IMG/VR virus record: IMGVR_UViG_3300044765_000155
Location: 1-40,781 of that record
Direction: 5' to 3' (one strand)
From: a virus
Length of the DNA stretch: 40,781 nucleotides
The position numbers were made by a program, and so were the translations under genes. The notes under the pieces were generated by a model. The model was not told where the DNA came from. It ran no database searches and saw only the letters and a list, made by a program, of their open reading frames with translations. Every line of letters starts with the position of its first letter. Position 1 is the stretch's first letter. Positions 172-25,400 of the stretch are shown piece by piece.

Positions 172-2901
172 CTACACGTCACCCCTTTGCTGGGCGGCCT
201 TGAGTGTGCTCACACTGATGCCCAATGCAGCAGCTACATCAGCAGTGGTAGCACCAGCAGCCAGCATGGACTTGGCCCTGCTGGTGATGGCAGTAGTCAT
301 GACTGTGTTGGTGCGTGGCATGCTCAGCTCAGCCACCCGCTTGGGATCGACATAGCCAAGGATGTCACGCAGTCTGCTACTACTCACAGCACCAGCCTGG
401 ATTGCATCCCACTGTCGATCACTGATCTCAATGGTTGGGCGCTCCAGACCAAGCCTTGCTCTGGCTGCAGCCAAGGCCTGACGTTCTACCTTCTTGAGCC
501 TGTCCTGATCGACACGCAGAGTCGGATCCTCCTGGCGCTTGGCCTTGACCACTACACCAGCAGCGATCTGGGCCTTCCTGTCCAGGGGCTTCTGTTTCTG
601 CGCCGCCCTCAGCTGAGACACAAGGTCATCGACCTCAGCCTTGTAGATCTCCCTGGCCTTGGGGTTGATCGGAGGGTTCGGTGTACGATCGGACTTGAGA
701 CGAGCTGCATTGGCCATAGCCTTCATGGCATTAGCGTGCTCTGCATAGAGCTTCTCCACAGGATCGTTCTTGTCCCGTACCAAAGAGAAAGCGTCCTGAG
801 TATCGGCCAGACGCTTGATCTTGGACGTGACCGGAACCTTCTGATCCGTATAGGTCTGAGTCTTGGGATCGTACTTGTTTCTGGTACGACCCGTTTCCTC
901 AAACTGGAGAACACCCGTCTCCTTGTCGATTGCTCCACCCTTAGCCGCACTCCGAAGCTTGCGCTCAGGAACACGAATCTCAGCAGTGGCCTTGGACAGC
1001 AGAGTCGTAGCACCAGCATCCGGTCGACCCTGATACAGAGTCTTGAGCTGCTTGATGCCGTTGTCGATCTCTGACTGCTTGTAATCGAGCTTGTGCTTCT
1101 CAGCATCGATGACCACCATGGAATGGCGGACAGCTCGGACCACATGCTCAGGCTTAGCACCCTGGATCTGCATGTCGGTGATGAGGTTGGTGATCATCCC
1201 CATCTCGAGACCCGTGTTCGTCATCAACTTGAAGTTGCCGACGGGACGGCCCTTAGAATCCACACCGGTCTGCTCGAAGCCGCCGTACTTACGCTTCGGG
1301 TCGAAGTTGTTCAGACCCTCTTCGTAGACCTTGGCTGCGGACCCCATGGACTGAGATCCCTTGATCTTTCCGGCTCGGTTGGGGATGACGATGACGGTAT
1401 CGCCGTCGAAGTCAGCTCCTGAAAGGCGCTCTGCCACCGAGGGGTGGATTCCAATCGCGTCCGTGGCATTGCCGAGAAGACGCTTAGCCGTCCTGTTATT
1501 GTTGTTGACAGTGACTTCCGGAATCTCGAAACGGCCTCCGTGAGGATACCGAATGAGGACAACTCTCTCTCCCGTCTCAAAGTTGGGTGCGTAGATCTCG
1601 TTCTTCGCCATCTTAGGCATCGGGATGATGACCTGAGTCCTCTGACGAGGGAAGGCTGCAGCACGAAGGTCCACAGCGTCGGAGTCGATCTGATCAGCGA
1701 AGGATTCGAGCTCCTTCTTACGAACAACGGGGTTCGTGATCTTGTTGATCTCGTCCAGACGGCTCTGAACCTGAGCACGAGTTTCGGCCAGCTGAGACTT
1801 GATGAGCGAGTGCGGCTGCTTGGCCAGCATCTGACTCGGGACCGACTTTCGCCAATCCTCCCAGTCGCCTTCCTCATTGACGATGTTGATGGCCGACTTG
1901 ACCTTCTCCTTGCCCGTCTTCGGGTCAATGGTGACGATCTGCCGCTTGATCTGAGAACCAAACGGATTGTCGGAGTCAGCCTTCATCGGCTTGAGAGCGC
2001 CCATCTTCCCAACGGACGGACTCTTGCTCGAGTGGACCTCGAGATCGACACCGGGCGGGAGATCCGGGTTGAGAACCGCCACACCCTTGATGAAGTGCGT
2101 TCCGTCGACAGCAATGCGAGCCTGAGCGTAGGTGTTCTTACCCATATCCAGATCCGCAACACCAGGACGAACGTATACGATTCCGTCCTGATCGCTGTTG
2201 AACTTCACGTCGACTCGAGACGAGTTGACCGAAATCGGCGGGTGAATGCCGAAATATGTCAACCCATCGTCCTCTGTCCACTCACCCATGGTGTGGATCT
2301 TGTCCACCATCTTCTTGGCCTGACCGAACGTGACATCCGGACCCACGATGACCTTGTGATTGATCAGGTGGTTGGTGCCCGGAAGCTTGACCTGAAGGTT
2401 GTAGGTGTTGTAACCCTCATCCCGCAGAACCGCGACTGCCGACTTGAGTTTGGTGTCAGCAATGCCGAGATGATGCTCGACACCCTTACCAATATCGACA
2501 ATCTCATGCTCATCCACATTCTTACGAATGATTTCGGCCGTCTTACGAAGAGACGACTCCTTCATGTTCTCGCTGTTCTTCAGACGAAGACGAACGGTCG
2601 GGGCTGGGATCCCCATCTGATCGGCAATGGCCTGAATCGCCGTTCCCTTGTCTCGGAGAGCAACCGCACGACGAGTTTCCTCGAGAACGATCTGCTCCTT
2701 GGCGATGGTCGTGGTCGAACGAAGGTCCTGAACCGACAAACCGACAGCCTTGGCGATCTCGACCTGACTCAGGCCCTGGGCCTTCATCGAATCTACCGTC
2801 TGGTAGAACTGGAGAGAACGAGCGTACTCATCCTTCCCTGAACCCCACGGGTATCGCCCCGACTTGCGGAGGATGCCGTAATGCAGAAGTTCGTCGCTCA
2901 C
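172..2901 (-). CDS. DFDGD-type single-chain RNA polymerase with helix-turn-helix segments
   Basis: This 909-residue protein carries ADFDGD at 496-501, the metal-binding signature of the beta-prime double-psi barrel of multisubunit RNA polymerases and of the phage YonO/QDE-1-like single-chain enzymes. The context also fits: IHPSVAERLSGADFDGD resembles the beta-prime HPLVCxAxNADFDGD stretch, and VVLIRYPHGG (447-456) resembles the conserved NRxPTLHR region. A segment near 265-300 (KGVAVLNPDLPPGVD) may be the partner barrel. Three helix-turn-helix-like segments stand out: LSQVEIAKAVGLS (44-56), IQAIADQMGIPAPTV (89-103) and, at the C-terminus, TADVAAALGISVSTL. The N-terminus has HYG then GRYPWGSG (7-22), a tag-like motif seen in phage virion-associated proteins. 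The start is GTG, overlapping the upstream stop as GTGA, with GGAGGAG upstream. The likely role is transcription of phage genes; template type and partner factors are unknown. The family call rests on motifs only. Confidence 0.8.
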   Translation of the reverse strand: MSDELLHYGILRKSGRYPWGSGKDEYARSLQFYQTVDSMKAQGLSQVEIAKAVGLSVQDLRSTTTIAKEQIVLEETRRAVALRDKGTAIQAIADQMGIPAPTVRLRLKNSENMKESSLRKTAEIIRKNVDEHEIVDIGKGVEHHLGIADTKLKSAVAVLRDEGYNTYNLQVKLPGTNHLINHKVIVGPDVTFGQAKKMVDKIHTMGEWTEDDGLTYFGIHPPISVNSSRVDVKFNSDQDGIVYVRPGVADLDMGKNTYAQARIAVDGTHFIKGVAVLNPDLPPGVDLEVHSSKSPSVGKMGALKPMKADSDNPFGSQIKRQIVTIDPKTGKEKVKSAINIVNEEGDWEDWRKSVPSQMLAKQPHSLIKSQLAETRAQVQSRLDEINKITNPVVRKKELESFADQIDSDAVDLRAAAFPRQRTQVIIPMPKMAKNEIYAPNFETGERVVLIRYPHGGRFEIPEVTVNNNNRTAKRLLGNATDAIGIHPSVAERLSGADFDGDTVIVIPNRAGKIKGSQSMGSAAKVYEEGLNNFDPKRKYGGFEQTGVDSKGRPVGNFKLMTNTGLEMGMITNLITDMQIQGAKPEHVVRAVRHSMVVIDAEKHKLDYKQSEIDNGIKQLKTLYQGRPDAGATTLLSKATAEIRVPERKLRSAAKGGAIDKETGVLQFEETGRTRNKYDPKTQTYTDQKVPVTSKIKRLADTQDAFSLVRDKNDPVEKLYAEHANAMKAMANAARLKSDRTPNPPINPKAREIYKAEVDDLVSQLRAAQKQKPLDRKAQIAAGVVVKAKRQEDPTLRVDQDRLKKVERQALAAARARLGLERPTIEISDRQWDAIQAGAVSSSRLRDILGYVDPKRVAELSMPRTNTVMTTAITSRAKSMLAAGATTADVAAALGISVSTLKAAQQRGDV

Positions 2902-3747: not shown

Positions 3748-3787
3748 GAGCCCATGTGGGCTCTGTTGGAAGGACATATGGTGTCCT
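3748..3787 (-). promoter_or_regulatory. Leader with two hairpins, possible attenuator
   Basis: Between promoter-like element E1 and the nuclease start are two inverted repeats: AGGACA/TGTCCT (3771-3787) and GAGCCC/GGGCTC (3748-3763). On the transcribed strand the second is followed closely by ACTTTTG, so it could act as a weak terminator or attenuator before the nuclease/RNA polymerase operon. This is inferred from sequence only. Confidence 0.4.
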
Positions 3788-3790
3788 CCT

Positions 3791-3814
3791 CATTATAATA
3801 CGTGTTTTTTCTAC
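3791..3814 (-). promoter_or_regulatory. Promoter-like element E1
   Basis: Minus-strand element with AACACG, three bases, then TATAAT followed by GAGG. It is a diverged member of the repeated family TTACAYG-N3-TATAT-like hexamer. It lies between the SF2 helicase terminator and the nuclease/RecB/RNA polymerase genes and is the best candidate promoter for that operon. Confidence 0.6.
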
Positions 3815-3870: not shown

Positions 3871-5070
3871 TCAGTTGTATTTGTCCAGTAGCGACGTCGG
3901 CTTCTGGGCTGGTTCCTTCGGCCATGCTTTCTTGGCGAAGGCTGATGCTTGGAAGTTCTTCTTGCGGTGAAGCGACTTCCAAATGCCCTGGTCGATGATG
4001 GCTCTCGACTTCAGGGTGTAGTAGTGCAGGGTCTCGAACTTGGTATTCAGACGGTCGATGCGCCCATGAGCCTGTTCGTAGTTCTTGTACGAGTACGGCA
4101 GGCTGTAGAAGATCATCGTATCCGTTTCCACACAGTTCCACCCCTCGGATCCCGCCTGATACTGAACGAGGTAGATCCACTCCTCAGAGTCAGGGATGCT
4201 CTGATGGACGTGACCGTTCCACTCGGCCAGAGGCCGGTCGAGTTCCCCGTGCAGACATCGTAGGATTTCGAGTTCGTAGTTGTGGGTGTAGAAGATGATG
4301 ACACGCGGGTTCTCCTCGCAAATCTTGACGGTGGCGTTGTAGCGAGAGATGTCACTGTTCGCACTCTTGCGTAGTAGACGCATCAGCTCGGCCACATCCT
4401 TGATGGGCACATCCTCATAGAAGTTCCAGCGATCGCGCCAGAGAAGCTGTTGCTCCTCCATACTGAATTCCACAGGGACGATGTGCTCTTCTCGTACCGC
4501 CTTCTTCATGAACGGCATCTCGACGAAGATCTGGTCTCGATACTTCTCGAGGATCCAAGGGTCGATGTACCGGTCTACCTTCGGGTGCTTGGAGTAGCGG
4601 CTGAAGACGACGTGTTCTCGGTTGAACTGTGCACGGGACTCGAAGAAGCCGTTGGCGATGAAGATCGTGACGAGGTCCATCCATGTATCGGCCGGCGTGG
4701 CTGATAGGACGATCCACTCATTCTTGGCTGCGATCTTGTAGAAGGACTCGGCCCATGCTCCCTTGCCCACCAGCTTCTGTTCGTCGAAGATGAAGAACGC
4801 GCCTTCTACTTCTTCGAACTTGCTGATGTTGTTCCAGCTCTCGACCTGAAGTGGGTTGCGCAGCGACATCTTCATCGCATCTTCCCACCACTCACCATTA
4901 TCCCGCTTCTTGGCGGTCGTGATGGCGTAGATCGGCTTGGTCTCGTCGAGGCCCGTGAAATATGCCAGCGCCGTGATGGTCTTGCCGGAACCGACACCAC
5001 CTACCAACACGCTTCCCGAATGGAGCTTGGCGATGGCGTCGGTCTGATGCTTCTCTAGGGTAATTGCCAC
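3871..5070 (-). CDS. SF2 helicase (SNF2/DEAD-like)
   Basis: The 399-residue protein has the superfamily 2 helicase motif order: Walker A GGVGSGKT (24-31), motif II variant DEQK (96-99) in place of DEAD/DEAH, motif III SATP (123-126) and motif VI QAHGRIDR (333-340). The second RecA lobe contains GSEGWNC, typical of SNF2-type phage helicases. It is short for SNF2 proteins but normal for compact phage helicases used in replication or recombination. The start is GTG at 5070 with GGAAGGAGGTG just upstream. It sits directly after the 5.1-5.5 kb non-coding control region and before the nucleases, with a terminator behind it. Confidence 0.88.
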   Translation of the reverse strand: MAITLEKHQTDAIAKLHSGSVLVGGVGSGKTITALAYFTGLDETKPIYAITTAKKRDNGEWWEDAMKMSLRNPLQVESWNNISKFEEVEGAFFIFDEQKLVGKGAWAESFYKIAAKNEWIVLSATPADTWMDLVTIFIANGFFESRAQFNREHVVFSRYSKHPKVDRYIDPWILEKYRDQIFVEMPFMKKAVREEHIVPVEFSMEEQQLLWRDRWNFYEDVPIKDVAELMRLLRKSANSDISRYNATVKICEENPRVIIFYTHNYELEILRCLHGELDRPLAEWNGHVHQSIPDSEEWIYLVQYQAGSEGWNCVETDTMIFYSLPYSYKNYEQAHGRIDRLNTKFETLHYYTLKSRAIIDQGIWKSLHRKKNFQASAFAKKAWPKEPAQKPTSLLDKYN

Positions 5071-5180
5071 TCTTTCACCTCCTTCCGGGCTATTACACGT
5101 TTACGCGAAAATATGGTCCCCCTTTGCCTGTGAGATTCTACAGAGTATTTCTCTCTCTATTTATACACTTCTTATGTGTA

Positions 5181-5216
5181 ACTACTATTAAAAACGTGTA
5201 AATGTGTAATAGTAGT
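5181..5216. repeat. Perfect 10-bp inverted repeat enclosing TTACAC boxes
   Basis: ACTACTATTA (5181-5190) and TAATAGTAGT (5207-5216) are exact complements. The 16-base loop contains CGTGTAA and TGTG. Read on the minus strand the segment also contains TTTACACG-N4-TAATAG, close to the promoter-like element family. It could be a regulator-binding site. Confidence 0.7.
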
Positions 5217-5280
5217 ATAATAGCAGGTCAGAGAGGGGTCACGCTCCCACAAGATCTTGATCTGAGCGTGCGGAATTTTT
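5216..5280 (+). ncRNA. Candidate short plus-strand transcript
   Basis: A TATAAT hexamer (5216-5221) on the plus strand is followed about 20 bases later by a hairpin (CACGCTC 5240-5246 with GAGCGTG 5264-5270) and then CGGAATTTTT. That is a promoter-like box and a terminator-like hairpin about 50 bases apart with no ORF. No good -35 box is visible. It would be the only plus-strand transcript in the window. Confidence 0.3.
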
Positions 5281-5398
5281 GGGGAGATTTTCACGATTTT
5301 CAGCAAAAAAAGCGATTTCAGGCGTAATTGCCCAAAAACCTCATTACACGATTACACATTTTTGTTCGGTAAAATCTAGGTCCCCAAAACTAATGTAC

Positions 5399-5458
5399 AA
5401 AAAATGGGAGTCGTAGAGGGGGTCTTGAGGCCAGCATAAGCCCCAAAACCCCCTCTAC
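5399..5458 (-). terminator. Strong hairpin terminator behind the 5497-6027 gene
   Basis: An 11-bp perfect stem (GTAGAGGGGGT 5413-5423 with ACCCCCTCTAC 5448-5458) is followed on the minus strand, after a few bases, by six T residues (5399-5404). It closes the transcription unit that comes from the 8-5.5 kb genes. Confidence 0.7.
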
Positions 5459-5496
5459 TTTCCCCTCAACCTCCTAGAAGGAGGTTTGTGTCCGCA

Positions 5497-6027
5497 TCAG
5501 AGCGCGGCGTCCCGGCCGAGGTCCTTGGAACCCTGGAGCGCCAGCTTCTTGGAGATGTCCTCCACGAGCTGAGTGCCGTCCAGCGGACCCTCCGCGGTCA
5601 CGTTGACCACGATGGTCGTTGCCGTCTCCTGCGGCTTCCCCTTGCGGATCGCCTTGTCCAGGTCGACCTCGTCGATGGTGCCCTTCACCGCCGACTTCGG
5701 CTGAGCCCAGGTCGCGTTGATCGCCGCCTCGGGGGTCTCGAAGTAGTTCTTCTCGAAGTAGTCACGCCGGAAGACGGCCCAGGTCTCCTTGATCTCGCCC
5801 TGAACGGTCACGACGAGCCGGCGGGTGATGAACATCCCCGGGAACGCCCAGGAGATCGCGGTCCCCTTCGGGGTGGGCACCCAGACGTACTTGTCCATGC
5901 GGCCGGGGATGCGACGGGACTCGGTCTCAGCGACCTTCCCACCGCACCACTCAGCGACCTCCTGGAGGTTCTGCGGGGTGACCTTCACGACCTCGAGCGG
6001 CGTGGTGAACATGAACTGCTTCTGCAT
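5497..6027 (-). CDS. Conserved phage protein of unknown function
   Basis: This 176-residue protein begins MQKQFMFTTPLEVVKVTPQN and contains EVAEWCGGKV, then AFPGMFITRR and a FRRDYFEKNYFETPE stretch. The N-terminal half resembles, in layout, the small phage family that also includes the 7545-7871 gene (a WI-type helix, then a beta-rich part ending in a D-x-F-E motif). The C-terminal part (from about 110) is hydrophilic and unrecognised. AAAAGGATATTT lies upstream of the ATG, a ribosome site that also carries the recurrent ATATT word. No function is assigned. Confidence 0.8.
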   Translation of the reverse strand: MQKQFMFTTPLEVVKVTPQNLQEVAEWCGGKVAETESRRIPGRMDKYVWVPTPKGTAISWAFPGMFITRRLVVTVQGEIKETWAVFRRDYFEKNYFETPEAAINATWAQPKSAVKGTIDEVDLDKAIRKGKPQETATTIVVNVTAEGPLDGTQLVEDISKKLALQGSKDLGRDAAL

Positions 6028-6667: not shown

Positions 6668-6978
6668 CCGTTCAGACGGTCACCCGGCTCGACCGTCGAG
6701 GTGATCGTCACGGTTACCTGCTCGGGCCGGCCCATGTCGACCCAGGTCTGGAAGTCGAGATGGACTCCTCGAGTCAGGGTGCGATCCCCGTACTGGTTGA
6801 TGTCGAACAGAGCGAAGATGATCAGGCCGTCGGGACGCCGCGCCTGGAGGTCCAGGACCGTCTGGGTCTGACCGAGAACCCTGGAGCCCTCCGTGTCCAT
6901 GGCTGATCTCTGCTGATCGCCCAGGACCTCGTTGGTCCGCTCGTCGGGGTTGTCGCCCCTGAACATGTTCCTCGGCAT
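6664..6978 (-). CDS. Hypothetical protein, 104 residues
   Basis: The ATG shares one base with the stop of the SSB-like gene (TGATG). The protein has a charged N-terminus (RNMFRGDNPDERTNEV) and a beta-rich C-terminal half (LIIFALFDINQYG, VTVTITSTVEPGD). I see no catalytic motif or membrane segment. Tight coupling to the SSB-like gene suggests a role in DNA metabolism, but this is inferred from position only. Confidence 0.72.
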   Translation of the reverse strand: MPRNMFRGDNPDERTNEVLGDQQRSAMDTEGSRVLGQTQTVLDLQARRPDGLIIFALFDINQYGDRTLTRGVHLDFQTWVDMGRPEQVTVTITSTVEPGDRLNG

Positions 6979-7511
6979 CAGAGCCTCCCGTACTTCTGCT
7001 CCAGGATGTTCGGGCGGATCACGGCGACAAGAGCCACGAGCCGCGCCGACAGTGCGCCCGGGTTCTCGTCCGGGTCGTACTCCCAGCCCCGGACCTCCAG
7101 GTCGAGCTGCTCCACGCGGGAACGGTCGAGGAGACCCACGGTCCGAGAGTTGAGCTTCTCCCGGTTCTCGCCCATGATGATCCAGACGTCGGGACCCTTC
7201 TCCCGAGTGATGTCGGACGGGTTCTGCGGGTCGGGCCGGAAGTCAGCCTTGACCTTCAGCGAAGAGATGGGCTCCTGGTCGGGGAACTCGGGGTCGGGCA
7301 GCCTCGTCTTGACGTTCCACCCCAACGCCCGCAGATCGTCGGCGGCCTCGTTGGGGATGATGACCGTGAACTTGCGGCTGTCGTCCTTGAACCGGTCCAT
7401 CTCCCCGCTGAGGTTCGGTCGCCCCCAGAACTTGGCGTTCTCGATGGTCAGGTTGCCGACCTTCTGCTTGCCGAAGGTCTCTCCGATGGTGACCTTGGTC
7501 TGCTCCGTCAT
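6978..7511 (-). CDS. Probable single-stranded DNA-binding protein (phage type)
   Basis: The 177-residue protein has the layout I associate with a phage ssDNA-binding family: an early NLTIENAKFWGRPNLSGE strand pair, KFTVIIPNEAADDLRALGWNVK, a PDQEPISSLKVKADF segment, a VGLLDRSRVEQLDLEVRGWEYD core, and a C-terminal ALVAVIRPN strand. The family is an OB-fold-like binder rather than the classical Ssb. AGGAG sits before the ATG. It lies just downstream of the helicase-primase-polymerase gene, as expected for a replisome part. The assignment is from remembered family pattern and has not been searched. Confidence 0.55.
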   Translation of the reverse strand: MTEQTKVTIGETFGKQKVGNLTIENAKFWGRPNLSGEMDRFKDDSRKFTVIIPNEAADDLRALGWNVKTRLPDPEFPDQEPISSLKVKADFRPDPQNPSDITREKGPDVWIIMGENREKLNSRTVGLLDRSRVEQLDLEVRGWEYDPDENPGALSARLVALVAVIRPNILEQKYGRL

Positions 7512-8394: not shown

Positions 8395-11300
8395 CTACGG
8401 CGCGATGAATGCCTCGAAGTCGCCGTACTTGGAGATGTTGATGACGGCGTCGTTGACCAACTTCTGGTAGTAGGACATGTCGATTTCCATGTCCTCACCA
8501 ATGGCCAACTCGTCGATCTCCCACAGCCAGTCCTTGGTTCCAGTGACAGCGCCTTCCTTGTCGCCGTCGACCCGCACCAGGTACCGACCACCGATGACCG
8601 GGATGAACGCACCGAAGCGACCGACGAACTGACGGATGCCAGTCTCGACCGTCTCCAGGTACATCGCTCCCTTGGCCACCTGCTTCACCTCGACGTAGTC
8701 CTTCGTCGTGATGTCCTCCTTGGAGAACAGCGTCTTGAAGACGATCGGGTGTTGGAACTGTGCTCCCGTTGCGGACCACTTGCCATCCTTGCGGCAGACG
8801 TACACCGCGTCGTTGACAAGGCAGAAGCGCTCATAAGTCGCTTCGTGCTCGAAGTCGTAGCCGTACTTCTTCCCGAACTCCATGACCTTCTCGATGATCT
8901 CCGGAGTTGCGTTGGGGATCTTGACCGAGTCGGTCTTGATGTGGATGATCTCGAAGCCGAGGGACTCGACGTACTCTCGAAGATCCAGCATGAACAAGGC
9001 CCCACGCTTGGCGACGATGTTGTCGATGTTGCGCGGGTCCTTGAACTTGTTCGGGAAGGTTGCTGCTGTGAACCCGTAGATGCTGTTGATGACGATCTTG
9101 AGGGCGTCCGACAGGTTCTTCAGGTGTTCCTCCGCCAAATATGGCTTAAGCTTCCCGTCGAACATCTGGCCGGCAGCCTCCAGATCCTTGCGCTTGATGG
9201 CCAGCCGTGCATCCATCAAGGCCTTGAACTTGGGCGTGTACTCCCCGAACAGATTGAGCTCGATGATGCTCGTGGGGTGCATGGACGCCACATCCAGAAG
9301 GGCTACGTTCTCGTACATCCCTGGCTTGGAACGTACGAGCCCTCCTTCGCCGACCTTCTCGCCCTTGTAAGTGGACTTTTCCTTCCCACTGGCGAACTGG
9401 TCGAAGGTGTATCCAGGGAACATCTCAGACAGGTCCGTGTACACAAGATCCGGCTGAGTATCCCAGGGCACGTCGCCGAAGATGATCTTCTCGGCGTGCT
9501 GGCGGGTGGTGTTGATGACCTCCAGCCCGGAGAGATCCGCAAGGATCTGCCGAGCGAAGAAGTCCGCTTCGATGTGCTTGCAGACAGCCCGAGTCGAACG
9601 AACGTCGTTCTCGAGGTACTCCATCACGTCCATGATCCGATCCTCCGGAACCGGCTGGTCCCAGGGAAGGTCCATCTCCATGTGGGGCAGACCGAGGTCG
9701 ATCTCCCACTTCTTCAGAGACTTCTTGTTGGGCGTGCTGGCGTACTCGTACGCATCGGCGTAGCAGGCCTTGTAAGCCGGCAGGAAGCCAGCCCTCCGGT
9801 CGTGTTCCACGATGATGCGCTGACTCAGGTCGTACAGCGCCTGGTTGTCGTACCCGAGCGTCCGGGCCCACAGAATATGGGCGTCGTAGCCACGGTTGTT
9901 CCAGCCGATCAGCTTGAGGCGGAAGAGCTCCTCGCACTGTTCCGGCGTGGGGTTGATCAGCTTGACAACCTCAGCATCGTCCCGGTCGTACATGTATCCG
10001 ACGGCGAAGAGGTTCGGGTAAACCTCCAGGTCGAAATATACGATGGGGGCGTTGTCGTCCTCAGGACTCTCGGCCTCCACCTCGATCTCGCTCTTGAGCG
10101 GCAAAGCCAGGGCGATCTCGATGCACTTGCTGGACTGGTTCGATGCCGACATGGCGAACTGCAGGATGTCGTCCCACATGTCGCTGACGTCGTAGACCAT
10201 GCCCTGGTTCTGGGCATCGGTCAGCACCTTCATGATGAAATCCATGTGGATCTTGGTACCGTATCCGTGGATTTCCTTTTTGAGTGCACGGACAATGAGC
10301 TCCCGCAGACCCTTCTCACTGGACATCGTCTTCTGTGAGAGCACCTTCTCCTCCTTGAGAGGCAGCCCCGAGTCAATCGAGGCCACCGGAATGTTGTTGC
10401 ACAGACTCACCCGACGCCGAAGCGAAGAGTTACCGAGCAGCGTCTTGACTTCGAACTGACCCTTGGGGTCGGCTCCTGCCAGCTTCTCGACGTCTCCCTC
10501 GTAGTCGTAGTGGAGATGCAGACCCTTACCGGACTTGGAGACCTCCACATACGTAGGAGGCCATGCTGCCGCGGCCTTGAGGTTGGCCTCGAGGTCTTTC
10601 TCACCCAACGCGTTCTTGAGGTCGAAGTCGATGACGATGTGCTGCTTCGGAACCTTGACATAGTGCTCTTCGGAAGTGTCGATGGTCTTCAGAGTGTCGA
10701 CCACCTGCTCCCACGGCTTCTTCAAGGGGTGATCCGGGTTGCCAGAATATAGCTGGGCCTTCTCGTCCTTGAGAACCTCGTCCAGCAGCGAGGGCTGTGA
10801 CTCCAATTCCAACCACGTTCTGGTCGGCTTCGGGGCTTCACCCTTCCAGCTGAACTTCTCGAGCTCCCTCAGGTGCATGAAATATGAACGGTGCCTTACG
10901 CCGTCCACCATGATCTCGCTGTGGAACTCCTTGAAGTAGTCCATCAGCAAGTCTCGGAACTGGTACTGCTTGTAGACGTTCCGAGTGTCCGTCTCCACGC
11001 ACCAGTCCGCATACATCTTGTGCGCCTGCTTCAGCGTCACGTTCTTCTCCAGGATCAAGCGGTTGTCCTGGACGAAGTTGAAGATGTCGTTGGTCCGATA
11101 CATCATGTCGGTGCTCCTGTAAGAGGACAAATATGTCGGACCCATCATGTTGAACACGTCGATGCATCGGGTTGCGATGGCGCCGAGTTCGAACTTGACC
11201 TGGGCAGTGAGGTTGTGGTACTCGTCCTCGGGGATGAGGTTCCCCGTCGGCTGAATATCCACCAGTCGCCGGAACAGACCAGACTTACGGTTGCTGATCT

Positions 11301-12132
11301 TGACCGGCTCGTTGGAACCGATGAACAGACAAGCCCTCGGTGTGATGGCGTAGAGGTTCTTGCCCTTACTGTTGATGAGAACCCGATCGTGCGAGACCAC
11401 ACTGTTCAGGTTCTTGTTGAGCTCCAACCTCGAGAGATCCCCGTCCTGGTCAATGGCGACGAGCGGGTTTCGAGCGAACGGCTCAAGTGAGAACTGAGCG
11501 TCCGCCTTACCCATCTCGAAGGCACTGAACGTCGCGGTATGTCCCTCGAAGAGGAGCTCGATGATGTCCATGATGGTGGACTTACCGGTTCCCGGCGGAC
11601 CGAAGAACACGTAGAACTTCTGCATGTTCTTGGCCGACGCTCCCGTGAAAATCGAGCCAATGGCGTACTCGATCTTGATCCTCTGCTCCGGGTCATACAG
11701 AGTGTTGAGAATCTTGTCCCAGGCCGGGTGGGGCTTGGTTGAGAGAGAATATGGCATCTTGAAGGTTGCCGCATCCGCCTTCGTAGGAGTCTGGTCCGCA
11801 AACACGATGGTCTGGTCCAGCTCCGGTCCCATGTCGCCAATCGAACGAATCAGCGCCAAGAACTTGGTGTAGAGCTGATTGTCGAAGACGCGCATCTTCT
11901 TTACCGTGTCACCCGGCCGGAGACGCTCCCCGACCATCTTCGCGAACGCCCTGTCGATGATGTCGGGAACGTGCGACTGCCGACGGCTGTACAAGCCCGT
12001 CTCTTCGTCCCAAATAGCTACGAACTGGCCTCCCCGGATAACGAGGTCCTGGCTCTCGAGTGCCTGCAAGGACGGATAGAACTCGCGGGTCCCATCCTTG
12101 TTGTCCTTGTAAGCAACACGAATGAAGTCCAT
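8395..12132 (-). CDS. SF3 helicase - AEP primase - family B DNA polymerase fusion
   Basis: This single 1245-residue protein holds three replication enzymes. (1) SF3/D5-type helicase, about 130-330: Walker A GPPGTGKS (178-185), Walker B VAIDQD (225-230), motif C FIGSNEP (270-276), arginine finger FRR (287-289). (2) Archaeo-eukaryotic-type primase, about 480-600: metal motif VIDFDL (500-505) and SKSGKGLHLHY (532-542). (3) Family B polymerase with proofreading: Exo I FDLE (700-703), Exo II NNRGYD (745-750), Exo III YLEND (839-843), motif A DVASMHP (947-953), motif B KIVINSIYG (1012-1020), motif C KTDS (1066-1069). Motif A has His in place of the usual Tyr, and motif C has Lys for the first Asp; the essential second Asp is kept. 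I start it at 12132, where GAGGAGG lies upstream, rather than at an upstream in-frame codon at 12186. It probably provides the whole replication fork core. Confidence 0.88.
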   Translation of the reverse strand: MDFIRVAYKDNKDGTREFYPSLQALESQDLVIRGGQFVAIWDEETGLYSRRQSHVPDIIDRAFAKMVGERLRPGDTVKKMRVFDNQLYTKFLALIRSIGDMGPELDQTIVFADQTPTKADAATFKMPYSLSTKPHPAWDKILNTLYDPEQRIKIEYAIGSIFTGASAKNMQKFYVFFGPPGTGKSTIMDIIELLFEGHTATFSAFEMGKADAQFSLEPFARNPLVAIDQDGDLSRLELNKNLNSVVSHDRVLINSKGKNLYAITPRACLFIGSNEPVKISNRKSGLFRRLVDIQPTGNLIPEDEYHNLTAQVKFELGAIATRCIDVFNMMGPTYLSSYRSTDMMYRTNDIFNFVQDNRLILEKNVTLKQAHKMYADWCVETDTRNVYKQYQFRDLLMDYFKEFHSEIMVDGVRHRSYFMHLRELEKFSWKGEAPKPTRTWLELESQPSLLDEVLKDEKAQLYSGNPDHPLKKPWEQVVDTLKTIDTSEEHYVKVPKQHIVIDFDLKNALGEKDLEANLKAAAAWPPTYVEVSKSGKGLHLHYDYEGDVEKLAGADPKGQFEVKTLLGNSSLRRRVSLCNNIPVASIDSGLPLKEEKVLSQKTMSSEKGLRELIVRALKKEIHGYGTKIHMDFIMKVLTDAQNQGMVYDVSDMWDDILQFAMSASNQSSKCIEIALALPLKSEIEVEAESPEDDNAPIVYFDLEVYPNLFAVGYMYDRDDAEVVKLINPTPEQCEELFRLKLIGWNNRGYDAHILWARTLGYDNQALYDLSQRIIVEHDRRAGFLPAYKACYADAYEYASTPNKKSLKKWEIDLGLPHMEMDLPWDQPVPEDRIMDVMEYLENDVRSTRAVCKHIEADFFARQILADLSGLEVINTTRQHAEKIIFGDVPWDTQPDLVYTDLSEMFPGYTFDQFASGKEKSTYKGEKVGEGGLVRSKPGMYENVALLDVASMHPTSIIELNLFGEYTPKFKALMDARLAIKRKDLEAAGQMFDGKLKPYLAEEHLKNLSDALKIVINSIYGFTAATFPNKFKDPRNIDNIVAKRGALFMLDLREYVESLGFEIIHIKTDSVKIPNATPEIIEKVMEFGKKYGYDFEHEATYERFCLVNDAVYVCRKDGKWSATGAQFQHPIVFKTLFSKEDITTKDYVEVKQVAKGAMYLETVETGIRQFVGRFGAFIPVIGGRYLVRVDGDKEGAVTGTKDWLWEIDELAIGEDMEIDMSYYQKLVNDAVINISKYGDFEAFIAP

Positions 12133-12143
12133 TGGACCTCCTC

Positions 12144-12704
12144 TCACTGAAAGTGTTCTGCGCTGTAGGCGTTCATCTGGCCCCAAATATCGAGCTGTCT
12201 CATGTCAACGACATCGAGGGCATGAACGACGGGGAACGGCGAACCGTGTCCGTCGGACTGGAACTGTCGACTCATCCAGTCGTCCGTGATGTTGCGGATC
12301 GACTCCTTCGCGGATGAGGTCAACACCCTCCCGGGGTATCGGTCGTAGCCCATGTTGCGGAACATGTGACCGAAGTAGTAGGACGGAGCTCCCTCGTAGT
12401 AGAAGCTGAACCTACGTGCCATCCCGAGGAGAACCTCGAGGACGGACGGTGCTGCTGTGGCCCATTGACCGAGCCACACCTGGTCGAGACTCTCCAGGTC
12501 TTGCTGGAACCCGAGGAAGTCAGACTGGCGGAAAGCCAGCGCATCTCCTGCCCTGTTCTCATCGGACCAGATGGTCCAGAAGAACGGGATGTCGTGGAGC
12601 TCCCGCAGGACGCCCTCGTACACCTTCCTCTCTCCGTGATCGGTGAAGCATTCCTGACGGAGCCAGTTGAAATATGTCTCCGTCAGCCAGACATCCGCGC
12701 TCAC
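12144..12704 (-). CDS. Hypothetical protein, 186 residues
   Basis: The GTG start overlaps the upstream stop as GTGA. The protein is aromatic-rich (WLTETYFNWLRQECF, DIPFFWTIWSDENR, YYEGAPSYYFGHMF) and appears soluble. I have seen similar sequences in actinobacterial phages without an assigned role. Its stop lies 11 bases before the polymerase start, so it is the gene translated just before the replication fusion protein. No catalytic motif is recognised. Confidence 0.75.
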   Translation of the reverse strand: MSADVWLTETYFNWLRQECFTDHGERKVYEGVLRELHDIPFFWTIWSDENRAGDALAFRQSDFLGFQQDLESLDQVWLGQWATAAPSVLEVLLGMARRFSFYYEGAPSYYFGHMFRNMGYDRYPGRVLTSSAKESIRNITDDWMSRQFQSDGHGSPFPVVHALDVVDMRQLDIWGQMNAYSAEHFQ

Positions 12705-13342
12705 GGTTCCTGCCGGATTACCTCGTAGTCGACGCCGGTTCGGTGGTTCCGGACGTAGAGCACGGGCTCCACTCCGGGCGGCACCAGCCGGTAGAAGTCG
12801 ACGATGATGCTGTCGCCGATCTTCTCCGCCCAGTCATCGATGGGCTGCCCTGCCTCGAGGAAGACGGGGTTGTACTCGTCCATGAAGACGAGGATCTGCT
12901 CCTTGAGCCGACCATCGTCGTCCTGGTACTCCTCCTCCTCGATGTAGCTCACGCCGTAGTCGGTGATGGCCCCATCGACGAACTTCTCGACGGGGGTTTC
13001 CGTGGCGGAGAGCGCCTTGTGGTAGGCGTTCTGGACGGGCTCATGCTCGATAGGAGTGATGATGACGGCTTCCTCCAGCTTCGGAACCGTCGGGAACTCG
13101 ATGACCTCTCCACCAGAGTTGGGCTCCGAGTCGATCGAAACGGGCACGATCTTCTCGTTGATCAACGTCCTCGCGTACTCGTTCTTGTCCAGGGACTTGA
13201 CGAACTCGTACGTCTGCTGCAGGTCGGCAGCCTTCTGGTCGTAGATCTTGCGGAACCTCGCCTCCAACGCCAAATATGCAGCGCTGAAGCCGAGCAGACC
13301 GCCGGCGACGAGGCCTCCCATGGCCTCCGTGGAGAGCCTCAT
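12701..13342 (-). CDS. Membrane-anchored conserved phage protein, 213 residues
   Basis: It has an N-terminal membrane helix (GGLVAGGLLGFSAAYLALEA, about 9-28), then a charged helical region and a C-terminal domain with an acidic EEEEYQDDD loop and VLYVRNHRTGVDYEVIRQE at the end. The end matches a phage family that pairs with DUF6353-like proteins in many Gram-positive phages, and indeed the neighbour is of that kind. ATGA overlaps link it to the upstream gene. The function is unknown; topology suggests a cytoplasmic domain tethered to the membrane. Confidence 0.75.
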   Translation of the reverse strand: MRLSTEAMGGLVAGGLLGFSAAYLALEARFRKIYDQKAADLQQTYEFVKSLDKNEYARTLINEKIVPVSIDSEPNSGGEVIEFPTVPKLEEAVIITPIEHEPVQNAYHKALSATETPVEKFVDGAITDYGVSYIEEEEYQDDDGRLKEQILVFMDEYNPVFLEAGQPIDDWAEKIGDSIIVDFYRLVPPGVEPVLYVRNHRTGVDYEVIRQEP

Positions 13343-14256
13343 CGCTGCTCCAGGAGCTTCTGGACCTTGCCGCCCACGATCAGACCCTGGCAGTTGAAGT
13401 CCAGGTAGACCGCGTGCTCCCGGTTGTACTTCCAGTCGTCCGGCATCGGCTTGTCGAGACCGAAGTCGACGAACGGAACGTCCTTCGTACCGTCGGGAAG
13501 ACGGGTGACCTTCCAGCCGACGACGCGGCTGATGTCGGACTCCTCGAAGCCGAGGGCCTTGTAGACGTCCGAGAGGTACAGGTAGCCCTGCCGGTTCAGA
13601 CGCTGCTGAGCGAACCGCTGCTGGTTGGCGATGAACATCTTGTTGATGCCCAGGTCCGGCTGCCACTCGCTCGAGGCACCCTGCTCGAAGACCCGGTTGT
13701 ACGGGTCCTGACCGGACGCCTCCCAGTCACGAGTCGAGATCTCCTCCACCTTGCCGGTCTCGGGGTCGATGACCTCCTTGTTGACCGCTCCGTGGAAGAA
13801 CGCCTGGTCCGCGTCGTGACCGATCTTCTCGACGACGCGCTTGCGGTAGCTCTCGAACGACTCGTTCAGAGCCGTGAAGGCGAGCGCCAGAGTGGCGTTG
13901 CGCTTGAGCATGACACGGTGGCCACTGAATACGAGAGCAGCACCCCCGACGAACAGGACGCCCGGAACGGCGTACAGCTTGGTCAGGTCGTAGGCGGCAC
14001 GGCCGTAGACGACACCCCGGTCCTTCGCAGCCTTCTTCTCGTCGTACTGCGACATGGCCTTGTTGTCGAGCGTTTCCTTGATGGCCTCCAGCTCGACGAC
14101 ATGGGTCCCGAGGACCTCTTCGAGGTGGAGGGTCTTCTTGCTGGCGAAGACCGCAGCAGCACCCATCGAGGTGACGCCGGCGACGACCATGATGGTCGGA
14201 GCGTTGGCCTTGAGGGCGAGCTTGGTTGCGCCGTAAGCGCGAGTGATGAAGCTCAT
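13339..14256 (-). CDS. DUF6353-like membrane protein, first paralogue
   Basis: The 305-residue protein has two membrane segments in its N-terminal half: APTIMVVAGVTSMGAAAVFAS (about 19-39) and YAVPGVLFVGGAALVFSG (about 92-109), each followed by a charged stretch, then a long helical and beta-rich soluble part that ends in VYLDFNCQGLIVGG. This layout and the KxxxxxALAxAxxAL stretch after the second helix are those of DUF6353 phage proteins. A second, more diverged copy lies at 17186-18001. GAAGGAAAG precedes the ATG. It heads a coupled run with the 12701 and 12144 genes. The role is unknown. Confidence 0.75.
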   Translation of the reverse strand: MSFITRAYGATKLALKANAPTIMVVAGVTSMGAAAVFASKKTLHLEEVLGTHVVELEAIKETLDNKAMSQYDEKKAAKDRGVVYGRAAYDLTKLYAVPGVLFVGGAALVFSGHRVMLKRNATLALAFTALNESFESYRKRVVEKIGHDADQAFFHGAVNKEVIDPETGKVEEISTRDWEASGQDPYNRVFEQGASSEWQPDLGINKMFIANQQRFAQQRLNRQGYLYLSDVYKALGFEESDISRVVGWKVTRLPDGTKDVPFVDFGLDKPMPDDWKYNREHAVYLDFNCQGLIVGGKVQKLLEQR

Positions 14257-14387
14257 CGAATCTTTCCTTCTTTCTGGAACTTGCGGTAGATGGCGACGAC
14301 CTGAACGTCCGACATCTTGAGGACCTTTTCCTTCCACGAGGCGGCGTACATGCGAGCCAGCTCTCGTCTCATCTGCTCGACCTTCAT
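14253..14387 (-). CDS. Hypothetical protein, 44 residues
   Basis: A short ORF with both ends coupled: its ATG overlaps the stop of the XRE regulator (ATGA) and its stop overlaps the ATG of the DUF6353-like gene. The protein MKVEQMRRELARMYAASWKE continues as a basic helix and ends GKIR. GAGAGG precedes the ATG. It looks like a small helical protein; the function is unknown. Confidence 0.75.
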   Translation of the reverse strand: MKVEQMRRELARMYAASWKEKVLKMSDVQVVAIYRKFQKEGKIR

Positions 14388-14653
14388 CCGAACACCTCTC
14401 CGAGGCTGTCCTCAAAGGACATGGGAACGAAGTTGACCTCGACCTTGTAGCCGAGACCACGGGCCCAAGCCTGGATAGTGCTGAGCTTGAGCCCGTCGAA
14501 CCCTCGCTCGACTCGTACGAAGTTTCCCTGTGCGATGCCGATCTCGGATCCGAGTTGCCGCTGGCTGATGCCCTGACTTACGCGAAGCTCCTTGAGCTGG
14601 GCGCAAATATCGAGCTGCTGCTGGCGGTCTGCTTCGGTATTCTGCAATGCCAT
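14384..14653 (-). CDS. XRE-family helix-turn-helix regulator
   Basis: The 89-residue protein contains a full Cro/CI-type helix-turn-helix: LKELRVSQGISQRQLGSEIG (20-39), then IAQGNFVRVERG (40-51) and SFEDSL near the end. The size fits a DNA-binding domain alone, with no ligand domain, as in phage Cro-like repressors or antitoxin-type regulators. AAAGG lies upstream. It is inside the accessory operon, not divergent from another gene, so its operators are probably elsewhere; the TTACAC boxes and E elements are natural candidates to test. Confidence 0.88.
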   Translation of the reverse strand: MALQNTEADRQQQLDICAQLKELRVSQGISQRQLGSEIGIAQGNFVRVERGFDGLKLSTIQAWARGLGYKVEVNFVPMSFEDSLGEVFG

Positions 14654-17185: not shown

Positions 17186-18001
17186 TCATCCGTGCGCGCT
17201 GTTATAGCCCTTCTCGGGTTCGGACCGAAACGTGAAGCGACGGACCGGCCGACCGTCGTCCCGCACGGTCACGTCCCAGTGCAGGCTGACGAGGTTGCCC
17301 GACCACCCGTAGTCGTCGCCATCCGGAAGAAGTCCGAAGCCGGCCAGCGAGTAGAACAGGTTCAGCTCGCAGTCGCCCTGCCGAGTGATGACGGCGTTGA
17401 CCTCGTTCATGGCGTCCTCGATGCGACGCTCGTTGGACCAGATGTCCCGACCGGTCTTGCCGTCCCGGACGAGATACATCTCCTCCACCATACCGTCGGA
17501 GTCGTAGACGAGAGCACGACCGTTGTTGCGGTCCGCGTTCCGCTCCATGAGCCGCTCGTTGATCTCGTCCTTCTCCTCCTGAGTGGGGTTCAGAACCTCC
17601 TTGACGGTGTCGGAGAGGTCGTCAGCGTACTGGCTGGCCTGACGCTGCACCTCGTCGATGGCCGACATGGCTGCCAGAGCGATCTGCTTCTTCTCCTTGA
17701 TGTGGACCAGGTGCAGACCCGTGGTCGACCCGAGGCTGGTGGCGAGGACTGCTCCGGCCGGAACGTAGTTCCGCCAGGTCAGGTCCACCTTCTCCTGGGT
17801 GGTCATCTTGGTGTCGGCCTCGAGCTCGGCGATGAGGACCTGCTGACCCGACTTGTAGCCGGCCTTGGCAGACAGCCCGCAGGCTGCGACGGTCGAGACG
17901 ACCGAGGTGCCGAAGAGGATCTCCGGACGATTGGCGGCAACGAAGTTCTTGCCGATCTTGACGAGGCCCTTCAAACGGGGGGCGATGGCGCTGATGTTCA
18001 C
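17186..18001 (-). CDS. DUF6353-like membrane protein, second paralogue
   Basis: The 271-residue protein starts at GTG 18001, overlapping the upstream stop as GTGA. It has the same plan as the 13339-14256 protein: membrane helix after a basic start (RPEILFGTSVVSTVAACGLS), a charged stretch, a second helix (YVPAGAVLATSLGSTTGL), then KEKKQIALAAMSAIDEVQ and a soluble C-terminal domain with LNLFYSLAGFGLLP. Identity between the two is low, so they are old duplicates or separate gains. It ends a coupled four-gene run of membrane proteins (18487 down to 17186). The role is unknown. Confidence 0.72.
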   Translation of the reverse strand: MNISAIAPRLKGLVKIGKNFVAANRPEILFGTSVVSTVAACGLSAKAGYKSGQQVLIAELEADTKMTTQEKVDLTWRNYVPAGAVLATSLGSTTGLHLVHIKEKKQIALAAMSAIDEVQRQASQYADDLSDTVKEVLNPTQEEKDEINERLMERNADRNNGRALVYDSDGMVEEMYLVRDGKTGRDIWSNERRIEDAMNEVNAVITRQGDCELNLFYSLAGFGLLPDGDDYGWSGNLVSLHWDVTVRDDGRPVRRFTFRSEPEKGYNSAHG

Positions 18002-22491: not shown

Positions 22492-25400
22492 CTAAGCCGC
22501 GGGCTGCAACTTCTCTGCAGCGAACGCGATCTGGTTGTTGGTGTTCCGGTAGATCTCGATGTCGCTGAGAGCTTCCGGACTGGTGTTGTACTGGTTGAAC
22601 ACGACATCGCCCTTGCCTGCCGCAGCAGCCGTAGCCATGTCATAAAGGTTGCTGTAGTTGTTGAATGCCTGAGCAGCAGCATCGGTCGGACCAACGTCCA
22701 CGACCTGCCCATTGCCAGCCGATGCCCCAGTTCCCTGGGCCGCCTGGTTGGCATAGTTCTCTGCGTCGGTCAGGTACTGACGTGCCTGGTCCGCCTCCTC
22801 CAAGGCCTGCTTGGCGAGGTCGTTCGCCGCATCGAGATCCGTGAAGGCAAGCTTCTTGGCAGCCTCGAGATCCTCGACCGACTTGGCCTGAAGATCTGCA
22901 GCGTCTTGACGGCGCTTAGCAGCCTTCTCCTCATCGGTCATTGCGTCGAACTTGGCCTGTTCGTCAGCGGCCTTCTGCTCCGCGTCGAACTGTTGCTGGA
23001 ACGCGTCCGCAGCTTCCTGGCCGGCCTTCTTCTGAAGAGCCAATGCCTGTCCTGCAGAGATCTTGCTCTGCGCGAGGAGCTTATTCGCACGCTCAGCTTC
23101 TTCCTTGGCCTGCTTCTTAAGCTTATCGGCCTCGTCCTGAAGCTTCTTCCGCTCAGCATCGCTCACACCCTTGGCATGGCTCTGCTTCTCCAAGGCGGCA
23201 GCAGCGATTCGATCCTTCTCAGCCCGGCCCTCCGCAGCCTTAGCCGCAGCGAGCTGGTTCTGGGCGTCCTCGGACCTCATCTTGGCCTTCTCGATGGTGG
23301 AGGCGTTGGCGAACTCTTCAGCTCGGTCCTGACGGGCCTTCGCTGCTTCCGCCTTCTTCTCCGCCGCATCGGCCTCCTTCTGCTGCTTGTGAGCCTTATT
23401 CGCCAGCTTGTTCGCGGCCTTGTCGTCATCCTTGGACTTGGTCTTCTTGGCTTCCTTCTGCGCCTTCTGAGCAGCCAACGCAAGACCAGCGGCCTTAGCC
23501 TGAGCGGCGATGGCCTTCTGGTCCAAGTTCTGAATGAACTTGTCGACGTACTCATTGGCGACAGCGATCTGCCCGCTGACCATGCTGGCCACGGCCGTGA
23601 TGGCCGAAGCAGCGTTCTTCTGGATTCCGTCAGTAAGACCCATGACAAGGAACTTGCCGATGTCTCGGAAGACTCGCGAGGGCGAGAAGATCTTGAGAAT
23701 CCCCTTCGCCTTACTCACGAGACCCGAAGCAAGGCTACCGATCCTCGAGATGGCCTCCCCAGCCATTGACCCAATACCGGTGATGAGACCCTCGACCATT
23801 GCAGAGCCAAGGTTGCCCATGGCCTTGCCCAGCTCGGGACTCTTCTGCCGGATGGTGTCTGCCAGCTTGTTGATGAAATCGATGATGGCATTGGCGCCGG
23901 CATTAAGCAGACGCTGCTGCTGACTGCTGATCGCGTTGATCAAGTTGACGATGATGTCAACGCCAAGCTTAGCGATCTTCCCGATGTTCTTGTTGATCCC
24001 GTTCAAGAGAGCGATGATCAAGCCAAGACCCAGGTCGACCATTCCGTTGACGTTGGCTCGTGCGATTCGAATGGCAGCCTTAATGGCGTTGTCTACGAGA
24101 CGAGCAAACTTCGGAAGAAGCTTGTTCGCTGCGTCGAGCATGCCACCCACCATGGTGACGAATGCCTTGATGAAGACGGGAGCGTTGGCGGTGATGGTCT
24201 TGACGAAGCTGACCACCATCTCCGCGACACCCTGGCCGATCTCCGGGAGAAGACCCAGGAAAGTCGTCAGGTACTTCGTGAACAAGGAGATGGCCCCGCC
24301 GCCGACAACCACCAGGGTCCCCAATGCGGCAGCAAATGCCGCCACACCAGCTCCCGCGGCCAGGACACCCACACCGATGAGCCCGATGGCTGCACCCAGC
24401 ATAAGAAGACCCGGACCGGCGAGAAGCAACGCTACTCCCGCTACCGACAGAATAGCCAATGCGGCAGCAAGCGTTGTCAACCCCTTGGCAATATCAGCCC
24501 ACGACAACTTACCAAGAATGGTCAGAGTTCCCGCAAGAGCCAGAAGGCCATATGAGGCTACCGTCAGAGCAGCAGCACCAGGCAAAGCGACGATCATCGC
24601 CGTCAGACCCACTGCCAGAATCAGCAGAGAGCCACCCAGGGCTACGAGGCCCTTGGCGACGGCACTCCATGACAAAGAGCCAAGAAGCTTCATCGTCCCA
24701 CCCAACGCCAAGAGCGCAGGAGTGATGATCAGAAGAGCCGCGGCGCCCGGAAGACCCGAAGCGCCGATTCCGCCCAGAGCCAACCCGAGTTCGAGAAGAG
24801 CTCCCCCGAGAACCACGAGGCCCTTGGCGATCTCTTCCCAACTCATGGAGGCCATGATCTTAAGAGCACCCGCCAGGATCGTCAGCGCCGGAGCGATAAC
24901 TAGAATGGCAGCAGCCCCCAGAACTCCGCCCTTCATGGCATTGAGTGCTACGACGAGAATCGCCATAGCGCCCGCCAGACCGACGAGGCCCTTAGCCATC
25001 TCCTCCCACGACATCGTAGCGAAGATCTTCATGACACCGCTGATGAGAACAAGAGATCCGGCAACTGCGGCGAGTCCGACAGACGTACGCAGAAGAATCG
25101 GACCCTTGAGGCTCTGGAGCGCCAGACCGATAACACCGATAGCACCCGCGATCCCAGCAAGACCCTTGCCGATGGTCTCCCACTTCAGTTGACCCATGGC
25201 CGCAATAGCTGCAACCAGAATCAACAACGCACCCGAGAGAAGAATCATCGACGCAGCGATCATCGGAACCTTGACGAACCCGGCCGATCCGCTGATCTTG
25301 ACCAGAATCGCCATAGAACCGAGCAGCTGGGCGAACCCAACAGCGATGGCCGTCAAAGCCTTGGTGAGCTTGGAGGGGTTGACCAACGACAAGGCCACCA

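Follow-up and report, generated by a model that had tools for sequence, protein, structure and literature searches.

What function resides in a gene-free, AT-rich region embedded among the replication genes of a tailed phage? This question is raised by positions 5071–5496 (the gap) of the viral record IMGVR_UViG_3300044765_000155, whose complete 40,781 bases are referred to here as the window (Table 1). We favour, with moderate confidence and from sequence comparison, the reading that the gap serves as a replication origin of the iteron type and, in addition, holds promoter elements of the helicase operon downstream. The evidence for this reading, and for its alternatives, is described below.

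The replication gene block

The genes of the window read as those of an actinophage-like tailed phage, i.e., terminase, portal, head protease and tail genes followed by a replication block, and all the genes named in this analysis lie on the minus strand. Along the direction of transcription, the block runs from the fusion of an SF3-type helicase with a family B DNA polymerase (SF3-PolB) through the ssDNA-annealing protein and several small genes to the gap, and continues 3' of it with the SF2 helicase, a VRR nuclease, a Cas4-like nuclease and the RNA polymerase. It had been stated that the gap separates the SF2 helicase gene from the SSB-side operon; the helicase does adjoin it, but its direct neighbour on the other side is the gene at 5497–6027, and the annealing/SSB-like gene is located further away. 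The SF3-PolB fusion is encoded approx. 2.9 kb upstream of the gap, and a dedicated initiator was not found. The SF3-type domain matched Pfam DUF5906 (E 5.5e-12), the PDB 'Primase' entries 6k9c and 6k9e (E 0.001) and, weakly and below the curated cut-off, the papillomavirus E1 family (E 0.004). Relatives were also sought through the ssDNA-annealing protein and through the DNA polymerase, and neither search found any; likewise, Rfam gave no match in the window. Elsewhere in the window, PHROG 2152 occurs twice, at 13339–14460 (also Pfam DUF6353) and at 17186–18001, and the AT skew is strongly positive at 24001–26000, within the tape-measure gene, nearly all the rest of the window showing the opposite sign.

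Composition and repeated sites of the gap

No open reading frame of at least 50 amino acids, in any frame, overlaps 5071–5487, and the GC content of the gap is 43% versus 59% for the contig, in agreement with its previous description as gene-free and AT-rich. The lowest-GC 250 bp of the window (5156–5405, 36%) and its least stable 100 bp, i.e., the most easily melted DNA of the sequence, both fall inside the gap. The claim of six TTACAC/GTGTAA boxes in approx. 270 bases was borne out: of 11 copies in the whole window, six are located in one span of 265 bp, at 5093, 5344 and 5352 on the plus strand and at 5176, 5196 and 5204 on the minus strand, when 5000 dinucleotide shuffles of 5071–5496 gave a mean of 0.21 and a maximum of 4. 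Five of these boxes, together with the one-base variant TTACGC at 5101–5106, form three bipartite 14-bp sites TTACACnnTTACrC with halves 8 bp apart (boxes A, B and C); the box at 5176–5181 stays single. The bipartite form TTACACnnTTAC[AG]C was thus observed three times versus 0.0002 expected. Within the window, the bipartite site is confined to 5071–5496, where three copies cluster with half-sites, and a 21-bp weight matrix of this site gave no other comparable score in the window. A genome-wide operator/stoperator system was discarded, given that the bipartite box is found only in the gap and not at several operons. Because the boxes vary, a blind scan of the window for clusters of 8-mers did not single out the gap.

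The perfect 10-bp inverted repeat described in the original prediction exists, but only one of the two boxes assigned to its loop (5196–5201) is wholly within it, the other (5204–5209) overlapping the right arm. Approx. 2% of the gap shuffles hold such a repeat. It is not kept in the related contig L002, and conservation thus lends no support to it as the organising feature of the gap. At 5400–5458, a hairpin followed by a T run is the probable terminator of the upstream operon; its loop exceeds the length limit of the hairpin scan and it was identified by eye, and hairpins are present at the matching place in the relatives L002 and L003. A scan for sigma-70 promoters detected a single weak site, no more than expected by chance.

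Table 1. Coordinates of the gap, its elements and the genes discussed
Feature	Position	Strand	Remark
Gene-free AT-rich locus, candidate replication origin and promoter region	5071..5496	.	426 bases
Bipartite box A TTACACATTTACACGTTTTTA	5189..5209	-	same strand as the genes; best conserved
Bipartite box B TTACACGTTTACGC	5093..5106	+	inverted with respect to box A
Bipartite box C TTACACGATTACAC	5344..5357	+	
Single TTACAC half-box	5176..5181	-	
TATAAATAGAGAG element	5153..5165	-	flanked by boxes A and B; identical copy in L003
TCTGACCTGC element	5223..5232	-	once in the window
Perfect 10-bp inverted repeat ACTACTATTA / TAATAGTAGT	5181-5190 / 5207-5216	.	
Hairpin GTAGAGGGGGT...ACCCCCTCTAC and T run	5400..5458	-	read by eye
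SF2 helicase gene	3871..5070	-	directly downstream of the gap
ssDNA-annealing/SSB-like gene	6978-7511	-	
SF3-type helicase fused to family B DNA polymerase	8395..12186	-	candidate initiator
YonO-type RNA polymerase	172..2901	-	DFDGD signature; PHROG 4291
Phage-type promoter motif AAAAACACGTATTATAATGAGGAG	3786..3809	-	before the VRR-Nuc/Cas4/RNAP operon

Conservation of the boxes in close relatives

An equivalent gap upstream of the helicase was found in three viral contigs (L002/L058, L003 and L039) whose helicases are 63–67% identical; the region preceding the helicase is not covered by L040 and L041. The absence of the boxes from relatives had been set beforehand as an argument against the prediction; the sites recur at the same place in the three contigs, with two to four bipartite sites in each. 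Boxes A–C are the conserved islands of the gap alignment: among the window, L002 and L003, 52/67 columns (78%) are invariant in the boxes versus 68/283 (24%) outside them, and in the closest alignment, which covers four viruses, 18 of the 22 columns of box A are invariant. When the entire IMG/VR collection was scanned for the exact pattern, the box was detected only in the contigs of L002 and L003. This conservation argues against a non-functional AT-rich spacer. A different cis-acting site, related to partition or packaging, would share with centromere-like sites the combination of repeats and AT-rich DNA; nevertheless, no ParA-like gene was detected among the proteins scanned, and in the related Rhodococcus phage Poco6 the annotated cos end is approx. 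4.7 kb away. Spacer and other cis site together are regarded as very improbable.

In all four viruses, a TATAAATA-like element is located between the upstream box and the inverted downstream box; the element TATAAATAGAGAG of the window has TATAWAWA-like counterparts in L002 and L039. This arrangement, in which the inverted boxes A and B flank a TATA element, speaks for an early-promoter control region, the main rival to an origin. According to this proposal, a phage DNA-binding protein, either a repressor or, by means of its HTH domains, the RNA polymerase itself, would bind the inverted boxes around TATAAATA and repress or activate the helicase operon. A promoter is indeed needed in the gap, because a terminator precedes it and a gene starts directly after it. 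On the other hand, a conserved regulator gene was not found, and repressor operators usually occur at more than one operon, which differs from a box restricted to one locus. A role limited to such control is considered possible, but rather unlikely.

A more specific version of this idea was contained in the original prediction, which pointed to the XRE-family (HTH_3) protein encoded at 14384–14653 as a reader of the boxes. As operators of this protein in a lysis/lysogeny-type switch, the boxes would be suitably repeated and partly inverted; however, the bipartite box is present at no other operon, the gene of the regulator has no box nearby, and no integrase was found among the window proteins scanned. 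Furthermore, no XRE homologue was found at the matching place in L058, which carries the boxes, although this absence is weak evidence since L058, like L003, is a partial contig. We therefore give this switch hardly any credence; from the dual prediction of an origin or a switch, it is the origin that was strengthened, by the boxes of the close relatives and by the family-wide locus described in the next section (from which the phage Camille departs).

A small gene for a membrane-protein-like product, absent from the window, separates the box cluster from the helicase in L002 (5204–5368), L003 (510–680) and L039 (1024–1194), where it has its own promoter motif.

The equivalent locus in the wider phage family

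A relative of the RNA polymerase, matching at least 80% of its length, is encoded in 249 or more deposited phage genomes. Twelve of these or related genomes, six of them complete, were read around the helicase; several family entries are genome segments and not whole genomes. The gene block of the family includes the SF3-helicase/PolB fusion, the helicase, the VRR and Cas4 nucleases and the YonO-type RNA polymerase, and in 11 of the 12 genomes an AT-rich gene-free locus adjoins the helicase or immediately precedes the VRR nuclease. Most of these loci hold a lineage-specific box, in three to eight copies, that is nearly absent elsewhere in the sequence examined: TGCCACTTT (seven to eight copies) in Madamato and Psst4, CTGTCAAA (six copies) and TTAATACGTA in Schwartz33, TTAATACACGG and CTGCCAAA in Artorias and Roney, CTTAATACCCTATA (four copies) in Poco6, and TTTGACA in Scap1. 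In Artorias, all the clusters from a blind 8-mer scan fall in the gap; in Kardesai, the same type of scan placed all five genomic copies of GTGGCCAA in the locus, where they form the only cluster of this repeat. The weakest case is RosaAsantewaa, where no repeat in the locus reaches four copies, and Microbacterium phage Camille shows no repeat cluster in the gap that was read close to its helicase.

The least stable 100 bp is within the locus in 14 of 15 sequences, including six of the seven complete or near-complete genomes, and in these same six the lowest-GC 250 bp is found there as well. The sole exception to the pattern of least stable DNA is Kardesai, whose genome is AT-rich overall. Two elements tie the lineages together: AAAAACTTTT, with one copy in each of seven genomes or segments, without exception in the gap, and TCTGACCTGC, which joins the window with L002, Scap1 and Psst4 and is found once in each of L002/L058, Scap1 and Psst4, always within the equivalent locus. 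As the sampled phages are related, the shared features of the locus do not represent independent events.

The gap is upstream of the helicase in the lineage of the window and downstream of it in most other lineages. The first of these positions keeps a promoter-region role in play, and the second speaks against control of the helicase operon as the general function of the locus; in addition, the extreme AT-richness and the seven to eight repeats of Madamato and Psst4 exceed the needs of one promoter. A point in favour of the control region comes from Artorias, in which one copy of the box adjoins the RNA polymerase operon promoter.

Regarding the surrounding genes, an HNH endonuclease gene separates the AT-rich locus from the VRR nuclease in most of the reference phages (comparison set L060, L062, L055, L057, L067–L070 and L072), and none is present in the lineage of the window; in Schwartz33 this gene is annotated as a DNA helicase. 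In Kardesai, the small annotated gene gp96 (L053 7794–7931) overlaps the GTGGCCAA cluster and is perhaps spurious.

The YonO-type RNA polymerase and a probable phage promoter motif

The RNA polymerase has two HTH motifs in its N-terminal part and one in its C-terminal part. A PDB profile search with this protein gave no full-length match, and some of the weak matches obtained were HTH-like and located at the N-terminus. Its relatives have been deposited as 'RNA-dependent RNA polymerase', 'HTH DNA-binding protein' or 'structural protein'; the last label, which in Poco6 rests on similarity to gp75 of Lactococcus phage 1706, raises the question of whether the polymerase travels in the virion.

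A second motif, of approx. 24 bp (window consensus AGRWWTWACAYGYSYYTWWATGMAGA; family form ACAnG-N2-4-TATAATR), precedes the minus-strand gene starts at 3809, 8387, 16511, 18580, 18802, 19114, 19224 and 19642. De novo motif searches recovered the same core in RosaAsantewaa, Yotsuba, Artorias and Poco6, i.e., in five genomes including the window; for Kardesai and Scap1 these searches found terminator-like sequences and no promoters. In seven genomes, the relaxed pattern has 46 matches on the coding strand versus one on the opposite strand. The hosts of these phages belong to different genera while the polymerase is common to the phages, and the motif is therefore probably the promoter of the YonO-type enzyme. 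The promoter sequence of YonO itself was stated to be undetermined (PMC5467207), and the motif addresses that question.

That the promoters share the core of the boxes had also been anticipated, and rightly so: WTTTACAYG is part of the motif, whose upstream half, TTTACACG, is identical to half of the window box and overlaps most of the TTAATACACGG box of Artorias. Leaving promoters aside, some of the best matches to the motif are gap boxes: with the half motif they rank 12th and 14th genome-wide in the window, and in Artorias 10th and 14th. This is suggestive of a shared reader of boxes and promoters, the RNA polymerase being a candidate reader of the TTTACACG core, and a core common to both is also compatible with the control region considered above. 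One could go further and regard the boxes as promoters of the YonO-type polymerase and nothing more. The second half of box A, ACACGTTTTTAATAG, is promoter-like, and box A extended by its right flank (ACACGTTTTTAATAGTAG) conforms to the relaxed family pattern and is the best match of the window outside the training sites; its score, however, is 14.0 and clear promoters score 23–32. Boxes B and C have no TATAAT-like half and point in the opposite direction, and the first TTACAC half is absent from promoters elsewhere. Taken as a complete explanation, promoters are therefore improbable.

A putative replication origin and known systems

The origin reading is based on the easily melted DNA, the cluster of sites at one locus, the position in the replication block and the fast turnover of the repeats between lineages; the gap is a single-copy AT-rich gene-free locus in that block with clustered sites resembling those bound by proteins. 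In the mechanism envisaged, an initiator, most likely the SF3-PolB fusion or a partner of it, would bind the boxes, melt the adjacent AT-rich DNA around 5130–5230 and load the SF3 helicase-polymerase; through the phage-type promoter core in the boxes, initiation may be coupled to transcription by the phage RNA polymerase. The SF3 class includes origin-binding initiators, and since SF3 proteins often bind their own origins we infer that the fusion protein is the leading candidate. A DnaA-dependent origin was discarded, as no TTRTCCACA sequence with up to one mismatch is present in the window gap. Counting against an origin are this absence of DnaA boxes, the turning points of the GC skew, which do not coincide with the gap, and the deviations of Kardesai and Camille; SF3-driven origins need no DnaA boxes.

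Searches of the literature gave no account of this locus, and no origin is marked in the annotated family regions examined; mycobacteriophage replication systems were described in 2020 as not well characterised (PMC7157519). As one locus is predicted per genome, origin mapping would be directly testable in cultured phages of Gordonia, Streptomyces and Arthrobacter, such as Roney, Scap1 and Kardesai, respectively.

The closest parallels to the proposed origin are lambda ori, with its O iterons, and the RepA-type origins of P1 and F, which also combine a cluster of short sites with meltable AT-rich DNA at one locus within a replication gene block. The gap differs from them in that its boxes are bipartite and in both orientations, in that the phage has no O or RepA gene and SF3-PolB is the only initiator candidate, and in that the putative iterons of this family differ completely between lineages. 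P4 alpha/ori, pRN1 ORF904 and papillomavirus E1 are SF3-helicase initiator systems with an SF3-type ATPase in a multidomain replication protein and repeated or inverted origin sites, as in the window; in the window the SF3-type domain is instead fused to a family B polymerase, and its origin binding is a prediction.

In a primary origin of the T7 type, promoters of the phage RNA polymerase precede a stretch of AT-rich DNA. The gap resembles it in having a promoter-like core for the phage's own RNA polymerase in an AT-rich replication locus, but the window polymerase belongs to the unrelated YonO type, a plausible complete promoter exists in only one gap box, and the boxes are in both orientations. 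That the YonO-type polymerase reads TTTACACG in promoters and in origin boxes, starting both transcription and replication, is a speculative and rather doubtful extension of the sequence resemblance; if true, a T7-like arrangement would have evolved independently, with a single-chain relative of the cellular RNA polymerases. Finally, the stoperators of mycobacteriophage L5 are, like the gap boxes, short repeated asymmetric sites related to promoter sequences; they are spread over the genome, whereas the gap sites are gathered at one locus.
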